Shown: positions 18,265 through 21,922 of the stretch, one piece after another | Position numbering within the stretch: position 1 is the stretch's first letter | How the letters are laid out: every line of letters begins with the position of its first letter | DNA from: Opitutus sp. | Lineage (GTDB): Bacteria > Verrucomicrobiota > Verrucomicrobiia > Opitutales > Opitutaceae | Direction: 5' to 3' | DNA length: 64,000 nt | Assembly (NCBI GenBank): GCA_024998815.1 | Contig: JACEUQ010000002.1 | Span: 256,501 to 320,500, forward strand | The notes under the pieces: model-generated | What the model was told of the DNA's origin: nothing | What the model saw: the letters and a program-made list of their open reading frames with translations, nothing else | Databases searched by the model: none | Program-made: the position numbers and the translations under genes

Positions 18265-19014
18265 ATGAAACCGCCCATTCAATCCGCCGCCAGCGCCACC
18301 GCCCAACAACCGCCCGTCGTGCTCATCACCGGCGCCTCGCAAGGCATCGGTGCGGCCATCGCGCAGGTCTTTGCATCCCAATTGCCCGGCGTGCGTCTCG
18401 CCCTGGTCGCCCGCAACGCCGAAAACCTCGCCGCCACCGCCCATACCTGCAGCGCCTCCGGTGCCACCGTGGCGACGTTCCCCTGCGACGTGACCGACGA
18501 AGCCGCCGTCGCCGCGCTGGCCACCGCCGTCGGGCAACGCTTCGGCATCGTCGACGTATTGATTAACAACGCCGGGGTCTTCGTCGCCGCGCCCTTTGTG
18601 GACACGAAAGTAGCGGACTTCGACCGCATCGTCGCGGCCAACCTGCGTAGTGCCTTTTTGGTCACGCAGACCTTCGTTCCGGCCATGATCGCCCAAAAGC
18701 ACGGCGACGTGTTTTTCATGAGTTCGATCGCCGGCTTGGGCGCCTACCCGAACAGCGCGGCGTATTGCGCGGCCAAATTTGGCGTGACCGGGCTGGCTCA
18801 GGTGTTGCGCGCCGAGACCCGCGACCACGGCGTACGCGTGTGCTGCGTGCACCCCGGCGCGACCTGGTCACCCTCGTGGTCGGGCAGCGGCGTGGCCGAG
18901 GAGCGCATCATGCCGGCTGCGGACGTGGCGCAGGCGTTTTTCGACGTCTACAAACTCGGCCGCCGCACCGTGGTCGAGGAGATCATCCTGCGCCCGCAAC
19001 TCGGCGACCTTTAA
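18265..19014 (+). CDS. SDR oxidoreductase, possible sepiapterin/pteridine reductase
   Basis: 249-aa classical short-chain dehydrogenase. Cofactor motif TGASQGIG is at residues 22-29, NNAG near 98, catalytic Ser in MSSIAG near 153, Tyr167 and Lys171 in YCAAK. Basic residue ARN after the second strand suggests NADPH. Its position directly behind folE2 and PTPS suggests a pterin substrate (6-pyruvoyl-tetrahydropterin reduction), but the fold alone would also fit 3-oxoacyl-ACP reduction. Confidence 0.78.
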   Translation: MKPPIQSAASATAQQPPVVLITGASQGIGAAIAQVFASQLPGVRLALVARNAENLAATAHTCSASGATVATFPCDVTDEAAVAALATAVGQRFGIVDVLINNAGVFVAAPFVDTKVADFDRIVAANLRSAFLVTQTFVPAMIAQKHGDVFFMSSIAGLGAYPNSAAYCAAKFGVTGLAQVLRAETRDHGVRVCCVHPGATWSPSWSGSGVAEERIMPAADVAQAFFDVYKLGRRTVVEEIILRPQLGDL

Positions 19015-19079
19015 GTAGCTTAATCTCGTTCGCGCCCCACTTTAACCTATCCCGGATTTAGCTAGGGCTCGCCGAGGCG

Positions 19080-21551
19080 TTACCCGCGCAAGGCGTCACG
19101 CATCGCGTGAAACTTCAGCTCGGTTTCGGCAAACTCCCGCTCGACGTCGGAACCGGCCACGATGCCCGCGCCCGCATAAACACGCGCCGTGTCGCCGTCG
19201 ATCAACGCCGAGCGGATGCCCACCAAAAATTCGCCGCCGCCCCGGGCGTTTACCCAGCCAATCGCTCCCGCATAAAGCCCGCGTGAAAACCCTTCCAACG
19301 CGCCGATGCGCCCCACCGCCGCCTCCCGGGGCGTACCACCTACCGCCGGTGTCGGGTGCAACTGCGCGAGCGCCGCAAGCAGGCTCACGCCCTCCGGCAG
19401 AGCGGCTGTCACCGGGGTGTAAAGGTGCTGCACGTTAGCCAACTTACGCAGCACCGGTTGCGCAGGAAAATCCAGCGCCAACCCGAGCGGTTCCAACCGG
19501 CGGCGAATCGAATCAAGCACGTGCTGGTGTTCACGGCGGTCTTTTTCACTGGCGAGAAGCGCGGCGCCGAGGGCGGCATCTTCACTGGCACCTTGCCCAC
19601 GACGGGCGGAACCCGCCAGCGCCTCAGTTTCGAGCACACCCTTGCTCACCCGGACCAACCGCTCAGGACTGGCGCCGATGAAGCTTTGCCCGCGCCCATT
19701 GGCGACCGAGAAACTGTAACAACCCGGAAAGCGTTCGCGCAGGCCGTTGAGCAGGTGCAACGGATGCAGCGGGGCGTCGGCGCGCATGTCCAAGGCGCGG
19801 GCGAGAACGATTTTATTAACAGCCCCCTCGGCAATCGCCGCCAGACCACCCGTCACGGCGGCGCGGTAATCGCCCACCTCGGTGGTCTGAAAGGTAGCGG
19901 GGCTTGGGGTGGCATGGGCGTCCCGCCCATGAGATTGGGATGGCGGAGCTTGAAGTGGCGTGACTTGGGGTGGCATGGGCGTCCCGCCCATGGTTTTCGG
20001 ATCGCAGTGCCCCGGGCGTCCCGCCCTGGCTGAATCCGGAATCATGGGCGAGACGCCCATGCCACGTTCGCTCGCTCCCATGGGCGAGACGCCCATGCCA
20101 CGTTTGCTCGATCCCATGGGCGGGACGCCCATGCCTCCTTGGGCCTGCCCCACCCAGCGCCATGCCACCAAACCTGCACGCTCCGGATTTCGGAGCAAAT
20201 ATTCAATCGCATGGGCGTAATCGGACTCGTCCCGAATCAAATGATCGTAGGACTCGGCCTGCCACAGCGTGCCGCTGCGCCCCAATAATTCATTCACACG
20301 GTGCGCAGTGAAGGATTTCCAACTCTGCAAAATGCTATCGAGCGCATGCCCTGGCAACGGCTGCACGACCACATGGACATGATTGGGCATCACGCACCAG
20401 GCATGGAGCAGGTAGCGTTGCCCATCAAAATGGCGCAAGGCACTCATGACCTGATCTGCGACGCGGTGAGCACGCATAACACACGCCCCGTGGCCGCTAT
20501 CCAAGGCGGCCTCGATAGAGGCAGATTGCAGCTTCAAGAGTCGATCAACCTGGGCGGGAGGCAATGGGCTATCTGTATTACGCGCCAGTTGTTCGATGCG
20601 GGCACGTTCCTGTCGCCAGGTTTCGATCACGGCAGCCGGAAGGGAGTCCGCCAAACGGAAGGTGACTGCATAAACTGAACCCTCGCGTGTCCAGTGAGGG
20701 AGATTCGCGCCCTGTCGAATCGTGATCGGCGTTCCACCCAGCGAAACAGCTGAGGGGCCAAATGTGGCATGGGCGTCCCGCCCAGGGGATTGGGGTGGCG
20801 TGGTTTGAAGTGGCGATGCTTGGGGTGGCATGGGCGTCCCGCCCATGGTTTTCGGATCGCCGTGCCCCGGGCGTCCCGCCCTGGCTGAATCCGGAATCAT
20901 GGGCGAGACGCCCATGCCACGTTCGCTCGCTCCCATGGGCGAGACGCCCATGCCACTTTCAGGCGGGATCAGCCGATCCCCGCGCGCGTAATCACAGTGC
21001 TTGAACTTTTCATGCGCGCGCCAAACACGCTCGGCGAGCGTCGCCAGATCGGCATCCGGTGCAACCAACAGGTTGGCCACCGCGGTCGTCACCTCACCGG
21101 CGCGCGCCACTTGCCAACGCGGCACAAACACCCGTGCCGACGGGAACGCGTCGCCCGTCGCCACCTCGTCGAGGAACGTGAACGCGTTGAAAAAATGCGG
21201 CCCGCCAAACGGCGCGTCCACCTCGCCCACCGCTATCGTGCGCGCCAACACGTCGTCGATAAACCCCTGCACCGAGGCAAACCGCCCTGGTCCGCTCGCC
21301 TCGTGCACGAGTAGCGCCTCGGCCCCGGCAATCGCCGTCTGAATCGAGGGCCGTTCGGCATAGAAATGCAGCTCGCCCGGCTCGAAAATCGCCTCCAACA
21401 CCGCCAGCGGATCGAGCGCTCCCACTTTTAGGGAAATGCTCACCAGGCGCTCCCGCCCGTCCGTGCGCGCCGCCTGGCGGCATTCGCGTAAAAACGCAAC
21501 CAGCGCCTCAGGCGACGCGTTCGCAGCGGGGTTGATCGGCAAGATGGTCAT
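19080..21551 (-). CDS. menF: Isochorismate synthase with REP-transposase unit inserted in frame
   Basis: Single open frame of 823 codons. Residues 1 to about 197 and about 552 to 823 together form a normal-size isochorismate synthase (about 468 aa), which turns chorismate to isochorismate for menaquinone or siderophore synthesis. C-terminal chorismate-enzyme motifs are KIVLARALD, SPERLVRV, LAGSARRG, QHLYTPV, LHPTPAVGGTPR, GLYAGAIGW and AGAGIVAGSD. Between the two halves sits a REP-transposase-REP unit of about 1,065 bases that adds about 355 residues with no stop codon or frameshift. Whether the enzyme still works is unknown. The gene symbol rests on the family; siderophore-type synthases look alike. 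Confidence 0.9.
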   Translation of the reverse strand: MTILPINPAANASPEALVAFLRECRQAARTDGRERLVSISLKVGALDPLAVLEAIFEPGELHFYAERPSIQTAIAGAEALLVHEASGPGRFASVQGFIDDVLARTIAVGEVDAPFGGPHFFNAFTFLDEVATGDAFPSARVFVPRWQVARAGEVTTAVANLLVAPDADLATLAERVWRAHEKFKHCDYARGDRLIPPESGMGVSPMGASERGMGVSPMIPDSARAGRPGHGDPKTMGGTPMPPQASPLQTTPPQSPGRDAHATFGPSAVSLGGTPITIRQGANLPHWTREGSVYAVTFRLADSLPAAVIETWRQERARIEQLARNTDSPLPPAQVDRLLKLQSASIEAALDSGHGACVMRAHRVADQVMSALRHFDGQRYLLHAWCVMPNHVHVVVQPLPGHALDSILQSWKSFTAHRVNELLGRSGTLWQAESYDHLIRDESDYAHAIEYLLRNPERAGLVAWRWVGQAQGGMGVPPMGSSKRGMGVSPMGASERGMGVSPMIPDSARAGRPGHCDPKTMGGTPMPPQVTPLQAPPSQSHGRDAHATPSPATFQTTEVGDYRAAVTGGLAAIAEGAVNKIVLARALDMRADAPLHPLHLLNGLRERFPGCYSFSVANGRGQSFIGASPERLVRVSKGVLETEALAGSARRGQGASEDAALGAALLASEKDRREHQHVLDSIRRRLEPLGLALDFPAQPVLRKLANVQHLYTPVTAALPEGVSLLAALAQLHPTPAVGGTPREAAVGRIGALEGFSRGLYAGAIGWVNARGGGEFLVGIRSALIDGDTARVYAGAGIVAGSDVEREFAETELKFHAMRDALRG
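19895..20960 (-). mobile_element. REP-RAYT-REP unit inside isochorismate synthase
   Basis: REP-associated tyrosine transposase (Y1/HUH superfamily) at roughly 20165-20760: begins IRQGANLPHWTREGSVYAVT, has the HUH-type motif MPNHVHVVVQP, and the C-terminal YDHLIRDESDYAHAIEYLLR followed by NPERAGLV. It is flanked on both sides by hairpin repeats with the core TGGCATGGGCGTCCCGCCCA. The left and right flanks are nearly the same, giving the peptide GMGVSPMG...TMGGTPMPPQ twice. The transposase is intact by eye. Confidence 0.9.
19905..20140. repeat. REP hairpin cluster downstream of the RAYT
   Basis: Several copies of CATGGGCG-TCC/TCT-CGCCCATG stem-loops in both orientations, interspersed with CCGGGCGTCCCGCCCTGG. 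Translated as GMGVSPMG, RAGRPGHCD and GGTPMPPQ. Confidence 0.92.
20762..20962. repeat. REP hairpin cluster upstream of the RAYT
   Basis: Same units and same order as the cluster at 19905-20140, including the shared 'GVSPMGASERGMGVSPM' coding segment. Near identity of the two blocks suggests insertion as one unit or recombination between them. Confidence 0.92.
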
Positions 21552-21922
21552 CGGATCGAAAGCGTTCTCAGTCTCATACGCTTATACCCATTAGCGTTAA
21601 AGTTGAGGAGGCATCCTTGAGCTTACGCTCAAGGCCACACGCTTCGCGAACAAACTCCTCGTGGCCTTGAGCGTGAGCTCAGGGAATACCGAAAAACACC
21701 CTGCGCTCACGCGCAAGGCCACACCGAGCCGGGTCACGGACGTGGCCGCCCTGAGCGTGAGCTCAGGGTGCTTGCCCACGGGTATCCGTTCCACAAGAAC
21801 CCGATTAATTAAGCTCATCTTGATCGCGAATTGGTATTACTCGCTCTCTCGATCACCAGCCCCAAACCAAGACCGAGACCGGGAACGAGCAGGAGTAGGA
21901 GTAAGAGAACGAGTTTTCCGTT
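21552..21922. repeat. Intergenic block of hairpin repeats
   Basis: Four GTGA/GTAA-loop hairpins (21615-21634 with loop GTAA, 21665-21684, 21699-21718, 21749-21768) in alternating orientations, then a partial GAGTAA-family segment at 21881-21913. No gene is supported in this 371-base gap. Confidence 0.85.

Follow-up and report, generated by a model that had tools for sequence, protein, structure and literature searches.

REP-associated transposases carried in frame within isochorismate synthase genes of Opitutus and related genera

The REPtrons, i.e. the REP-associated transposases (RAYT or TnpA-REP, e.g. 4ER8) with their REP repeats, are the closest described system to the locus presented here. 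According to PMC8266576, tnpA-REP genes mostly occur in single copy and evidence for their mobility is lacking. The module under study shares with them the HUH/Y1 domain, the flanking dispersed REPs with a GTRG tag and the absence of a further close RAYT copy in the genome. It differs in that it lies in frame within the gene of a conserved enzyme instead of forming a gene of its own. Its REPs also mostly carry GTGG rather than GTAG: beside the 47 exact REP cores of the genome the tag is GTGG in 40 cases, GTAG in 6 and GAGG in 1 (one of the first two on one side of 46 of the 47 cores), so that strict GTAG is in the minority.

REPs that are translated within conserved proteins have been described as well. 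In the accessible portions of PMC3733652 they are already reported from Opitutus terrae, intragenic ones are most numerous for the GTAG repeats of that species, and the inserts mostly span 20-30 aa, with 43-82 aa in Thauera and R. conorii. The cases described in those portions consist of REPs only, whereas the insert here includes the transposase too and totals ~350 codons. The same portions present the Rickettsia palindromic elements (RPEs) as translated palindromic repeats within protein genes, a further likeness (PMC3733652). Inteins with a homing endonuclease resemble the module as an in-frame nuclease passenger of conserved enzymes with a patchy spread and a site-tied lineage. However, no splicing domain was found here, and it seems that the inserted part remains in the protein, within a flexible linker. 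RPEs, to our knowledge, come without a transposase, unlike the module. The IStron (group I intron plus insertion sequence) is likewise a mobile element in a gene that is not killed by it (PMC4227781), but no intron was detected in menF-RAYT. As far as titles and abstract openings go, no description of a host enzyme that contains an entire RAYT was found in the open-access PMC literature. Judged from the sequences compared below, the architecture is real and recurrent; its parts are already known, and the in-frame way of life appears to be a new variation on them.

Layout and integrity of the fused gene

The window is a 64,000-nt stretch of Opitutus sp. (contig JACEUQ010000002.1, positions 256,501 to 320,500). 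Its genome (G000) comprises 4.24 Mb in three contigs and is 99.93% complete. An earlier note on this DNA had described a single open frame of 823 codons, in which a REP-RAYT-REP unit separates the N-terminal domain of isochorismate synthase (MenF) from the chorismate-binding core. This layout was confirmed by the ORF, Pfam and NCBIfam analyses (Table 1).

Table 1. Features of the menF-RAYT locus (window coordinates)
Feature	Position	Strand	Details
menF-RAYT fused ORF	19080..21551	-	823 aa, 87.4 kDa; ATG start, stop 19080-19082
N-terminal domain of MenF	20997..21551	-	residues 1-185
Tether 1	20739..20996	-	residues 186-271; contains REP array 20764-20959
RAYT (TnpA-REP) domain	20142..20729	-	residues 275-470
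REP array 2	19909..20140	-	within tether 2 (residues 468-549)
MenF chorismate-binding core	19083..19904	-	residues 550-823; KIVLAR = 580-585

Pfam places Chorismate_bind at residues 561-813 of the fused protein (257 bits) and Y1_Tnp at residues 380-431 (25.4 bits, cut-off 23). The NCBIfam model REP_Tyr_transpos (NF047646) scores 73.1 bits, below its cut-off of 80, and the window RAYT matches the solved TnpA-REP 4ER8 with an E-value of 2.2e-7. The HVH motif occupies residues 391-393, and tyrosine 451 lies within YLLRNP. Judged by its position, the tyrosine of Y-x3-NP is probably the catalytic one. Both HVH and this tyrosine are preserved in 6/6 menF RAYTs when read by eye; the earlier note had described the HUH motif and the C-terminal region of the transposase as kept. 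For the E. coli protein, Y115 is named as the catalytic mutant site in PMC8266576.

The nearest relative found, G012, shares 97% identity over the core and has an insert-free menF linker. In the alignment with G012 a stretch of the window at ~19,905-20,978 remains unmatched. The unit had been placed nearby, at 19895-20960; its exact ends, however, are not callable to the base because the ends of the linker are blurred in this comparison. The site itself had been suggested to be a surface loop. A tolerated insertion is compatible with the sequence, but the module sits in the linker that joins the two parts of MenF and not in a loop inside a domain.

The module holds nine REP cores (eight exact and one with one mismatch; shuffles average 0.10), five at 19913-20133 and four at 20768-20952. 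The arrays share a direct repeat of 196 nt, 94% identical, at a spacing of 855 nt, which is a multiple of three. The hairpin repeats had been described as translated, and indeed the REP DNA is free of stops in the frame used; as a refinement, each flank is an array of several REPs. The idea that REPs are open in all six frames was rejected: the arrays are open in two and three of the six, the menF frame included, with one or two stops elsewhere, and none of 1277 windows of 196 nt was open in all six. ORF length was likewise dropped as a marker of fusion, as insert-free long frames exist (L025, L031). The 47 exact cores of the genome, 8 of them within the module, are dispersed. Among the 13 genomes of the genus that were searched, the core of the window occurs 47 times in G000, nine times in G008, once in G005 and not in the ten others. 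G012 contains neither a REP core nor a RAYT match at E 1e-10.

The fused protein scores 311.7 bits with the NCBIfam model isochor_syn (TIGR00543; cut-off 224.75) and is thus assigned to that family. Three genes of the genome match PF00425, menF-RAYT included. The other two were considered as a second isochorismate synthase and rejected, as they represent FolK-PabB (pabB 364 vs 328.4) and TrpE (543.5 vs 517.7). MenD of this genome scores above its cut-off. Between G000 and G012, the dN/dS of MenF amounts to 0.055 in the N-terminal and 0.037 in the C-terminal part. With six outgroups, 4-5 unique amino-acid changes were counted in the window protein vs 2-5 in G012 (relative-rate chi-square at most 1.3). 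Altogether 122 MenF columns are near-invariant (at least 98% conserved among 137 non-carriers). None of them is altered in the window, compared with a non-carrier mean of 0.46, and among the other five carriers L188 alone deviates, at two. Both enzyme parts had been noted before to keep their motifs. These comparisons reveal no sign of decay in the window menF, and the purifying selection may largely predate the insertion.

An AlphaFold2 model of the fused protein was built on a 46-row alignment (pTM 0.63). Its block pLDDT is 85-98 for residues 21-170, 82-98 for the chorismate core and 67-94 for the RAYT (residues 271-460), while both tethers (186-271 and 468-549) stay below 50. In Foldseek the model matches E. 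coli MenF 2EUA over 813 columns (TMt 0.84, rmsd 6.9) and two further E. coli MenF structures with a TMt of 0.80-0.82 and an rmsd near 14. From the AlphaFold2 blocks and the match to 2EUA, the two MenF halves are predicted to adopt roughly the fold of a single MenF, with the RAYT as a separate domain that is looped out on disordered, REP-encoded tethers.

Distribution in menF and other host genes

Matches to menF at E 1e-60 were obtained in 226 of 252 genomes of the family, and 142 loci were read (one per genome, mainly the better-scoring ones). In five of these a complete RAYT lies in frame, on the same strand and in the same menF linker (G000, G017, G161, G036 and G163, from five genera). A sixth carrier, G146, was found via the RAYT search, outside the 142 loci; its contig stops inside the right repeat and the MenF core is located on a separate contig. 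No described protein of this architecture had been known to the earlier note. The six carriers show that the module recurs in six genera, always in this menF linker. Across the menF loci listed, the length of the linker is divisible by three. No RAYT is present at the menF linker in congeners of the other carriers, where these were read, and the linker of L151 is ordinary.

REP-like hairpins (GGGC-N3-7-GCCC) were found in 18 of the 142 menF linkers, namely in the five carriers and in 13 linkers without a RAYT. Their density is 3.57 per kb in the linkers (62 in 17,386 nt) vs 0.34 in the flanking menF domains (64 in 189,892 nt). The five carriers account for 34 of the 62 linker hairpins, and the remainder still amounts to ~2.2 per kb vs 0.34. 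Loci with a hairpin in the linker belong to REP-rich genomes (at least 5 cores) in 10 of 18 cases vs 2 of the 124 others (Fisher 3.9e-9), a mildly circular comparison that includes the linkers' own REPs. Carriers G036 and G017 possess 0 and 1 of the window's REP cores, respectively, and their flanking repeats differ. G186 (52 cores), G265 (54) and G057 (35) are rich in REPs and have no close relative of the window RAYT.

RAYTs were also found in frame in other genes; these were picked from listings for long frames, so no frequency can be given. The alanyl-tRNA synthetase gene alaS carries one in G161, G039, G200 and G150 (L272, L273, L274 and L275; four genera), near model position 375 of 847. 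A second alaS was not found in these four intact carriers, where the remaining matches score <35 bits. Of 18 other alaS linkers at this site, 16 were readable and variable in sequence, and a REP-like hairpin was seen in 0/18 stretches. The alaS of G014 also carries a RAYT, but there the contig breaks; the RAYT flank at the contig ends (L297, L298) reads as proline-rich and low-complexity, probably assembly noise.

Creatininase contains an in-frame RAYT in G014 and in G160, the latter a one-contig genome. In this single pair, for which no confidence interval is given, the RAYT has a dN/dS of 0.127, compared with 0.269 and 0.166 in the two portions of the host, and the embedded creatininase RAYT looks constrained by this measure. 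Further hosts are an adenosine deaminase (G048), Eco57I-type restriction enzymes (G278, G512 and G380, whereas that of G019 has a frame that stops past the RAYT) and HsdR-type proteins (G303, G066 and, at a contig end, G162). G303 also has a RAYT in an MmeI-type enzyme, and G512 has one in an SNF2-type helicase protein. In the Eco57I-type proteins L270, L322 and L324, from three families, the RAYT occupies the same site just ahead of the DPACGSG methylase motif; L269 ends after the RAYT.

In a RAYT tree of 37 selected rows, the six menF RAYTs form a single clade (99/96) that adjoins seven free-standing RAYTs, and the four alaS RAYTs form another (100/100). For alaS, host identity (0.67-0.81) and RAYT identity (0.66-0.82) change together in the four genomes, which makes the alaS RAYT look like one old capture that was inherited vertically. 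In the MenF tree (143 rows) the six carriers are dispersed among non-carriers, with six changes forced, and a single ancient gain would cost 33 losses on this midpoint-rooted quick tree. Host and RAYT distances are uncorrelated in menF (Mantel r -0.08, 398/720 permutations as high) and thus lend no support to a strictly vertical inheritance of the menF RAYT. Given the dispersed carriers, the 33 losses and the uncorrelated distances, two histories both stand: the menF RAYTs may stem from repeated insertion by a menF-preferring lineage or from one ancient capture with many losses.

The menF RAYTs are 56-71% identical to each other, with a pN/pS of 0.23-0.43. Within their clade, the branch leading to the G000 copy is the longest (0.52), and its pairs reach a pN/pS of 0.31-0.43 vs 0.23-0.32 among the other menF RAYTs, at saturated pS. 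With the longest branch and the highest pN/pS, this copy is perhaps under relaxed constraint.

All seven free-standing RAYTs of the adjoining clade possess ATG (4) or GTG (3) 11-12 codons ahead of the RAYT core. For the window RAYT the closest in-frame ATG, GTG or TTG is located 37 codons upstream of the core, inside a REP. In three of the six fusions a start codon lies at most 8 codons from the core (ATG in G163, GTG in G017 and TTG in G161), so that a separate translation of the RAYT may be possible in these three. A sigma-70 scan of 19000-21800 returned zero promoters, with 0.4 expected by chance, and is hence uninformative.

Explanations for the embedded transposase

The RAYT is probably an in-frame passenger in a flexible linker of MenF, expressed from the host gene and possibly still processing REPs. 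In one polypeptide, the RAYT, an HUH/Y1 transposase of single-strand DNA, and its flanking REP palindromes would fill the flexible linker of isochorismate synthase. The enzyme would work because the RAYT is looped out of the MenF fold on its disordered tethers. Selection on MenF would hold the frame open and thereby lend the RAYT transcription and translation, and the RAYT would act in trans on the dispersed REPs of the genome. Insertions would survive only with a tolerant linker and a fitting orientation, frame and length. Recombination between the direct repeats 855 nt apart would remove the RAYT without a frameshift, and the REP scar left behind would match the linkers of relatives that hold REPs only. 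The earlier note had suggested two readings, an enzyme that carries a transposase domain within it and a RAYT that is expressed through its host gene, and both are supported at the level of sequence. In favour of the passenger reading are also the 47 REP cores of G000 against none in the RAYT-free G012, the link between linker hairpins and REP-rich genomes, and the distance of the nearest start codon from the window's RAYT core. Against it speak the possibly relaxed constraint on the G000 copy, the start codons close to the core in three of the six fusions, the low core counts of G036 and G017, and the REP-rich genomes that have no close relative of this RAYT.

A more far-reaching proposal, which we regard as tentative and rather improbable, is that RAYTs of the Opitutaceae and their relatives constitute lineages locked to host genes (menF, alaS and others). 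They would be intein-like passengers, without splicing, of enzymes that are indispensable or serve in defence, and would need their host both to be expressed and to be shielded from loss. The menF lineage would move from species to species by homing, with a preference for the same linker, and keep its single-strand nuclease for mobilising REPs. If the passenger reading is true, a transposase can persist without expression signals of its own when housed in a needed gene. This would be relevant to the stability of RAYTs and their mostly single copy number, and to the origin of the REP-decorated proteins in REP-rich Opitutaceae. The fusions in MenF, AlaS and the restriction enzymes would also provide natural cases of a ~200-residue domain in an enzyme linker, which is useful for protein engineering. 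They matter for annotation too, as such long proteins are readily dismissed as errors.

The insert could instead be tolerated junk, i.e. a recent chance insertion in frame, with a working MenF and a RAYT that is dead weight heading for loss. The insert-free close relative G012, the congeners of other carriers without a RAYT at the linker (where read) and the long branch of the G000 RAYT would all suit this explanation. It is nevertheless doubtful, as the menF RAYTs of all six carriers group in a single clade separate from the free-standing ones, the HUH and tyrosine motifs are kept at the identities and pN/pS given above, the embedded creatininase RAYT has a dN/dS of 0.13 (one pair), and the divergence among the four alaS RAYTs parallels that of AlaS. 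Much less probable still is that the insertion broke menF and that the open frame has merely not been lost yet. A ~350-codon insert in a metabolic gene does raise this suspicion, and a survey set aside a few overlong family proteins as fusions or annotation errors, according to PMC6006769. Against a pseudogene, what was found is a sole isochorismate synthase, with MenD present, no acceleration of rate and all 122 near-invariant positions unaltered; the second intact menF with decay of this copy that the earlier note had considered was not found. Moreover, five other genomes are in the same state, as are, for alaS, the four genomes in which no other copy of that gene was detected.

The in-frame lodging in conserved enzymes also recalls the distribution of inteins and IStrons, and the insert might be removed between gene and protein by an IStron-like ribozyme, an intein or translational bypass. 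Such a removal is highly improbable. Rfam detected no intron, group I included, in 19000-21700 at E at most 1, where the lone miRNA match falls far under its gathering score, and an IStron was rejected on this basis. An intein was rejected as well, since Pfam finds only Chorismate_bind and Y1_Tnp in the protein at E at most 0.001, and no Hint splicing domain. Furthermore, the linkers that were read stay in frame, which removal at the RNA level would not need. An assembly or binning artefact, finally, is scarcely credible. As repeats, REP arrays do break assemblies, and the loci of G146 and G014 are broken at the insert. The window, in contrast, lies within a 1.68-Mb contig, the G017 fusion within a 7.3-Mb contig and the G160 creatininase fusion in a one-contig genome, while separate genomes concur on linker, strand and frame. 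The assembly error raised in the earlier note is therefore unlikely, given the window's contig and the five other genomes with the same architecture.

Other translated repeats

The window REP is also found inside other long frames of G000, so translated REPs are not rare in this genome, in keeping with the report of Di Nocera et al. on Opitutus terrae (PMC3733652). It is in frame in L300, L302, L310, L314 and L308, which encode a CheA-like protein, HrpB, an HrpA-like protein, a DUF255 protein and a histidine-phosphatase, respectively. Pfam domains flank the in-frame REP in the CheA-like kinase, the HrpB helicase and the HrpA-like helicase, and two of the seven REP-bearing frames scanned have no Pfam match. 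An avoidance of GTAG REPs in genes was not significant (0/19 vs 6/28, p 0.07, with long frames counted as genes).

In the menF locus of G001 (L017), the N-terminal domain is divided between two frames by an assembly gap. Past this gap the linker is in frame and contains an in-frame REP-like peptide. A second repeated peptide (GGVPSPR..GEGTPP or similar) was observed in the menF linkers of L033, L140, L149 and L177 and, more weakly, in L145 and L176. It perhaps represents a second family of in-frame elements.
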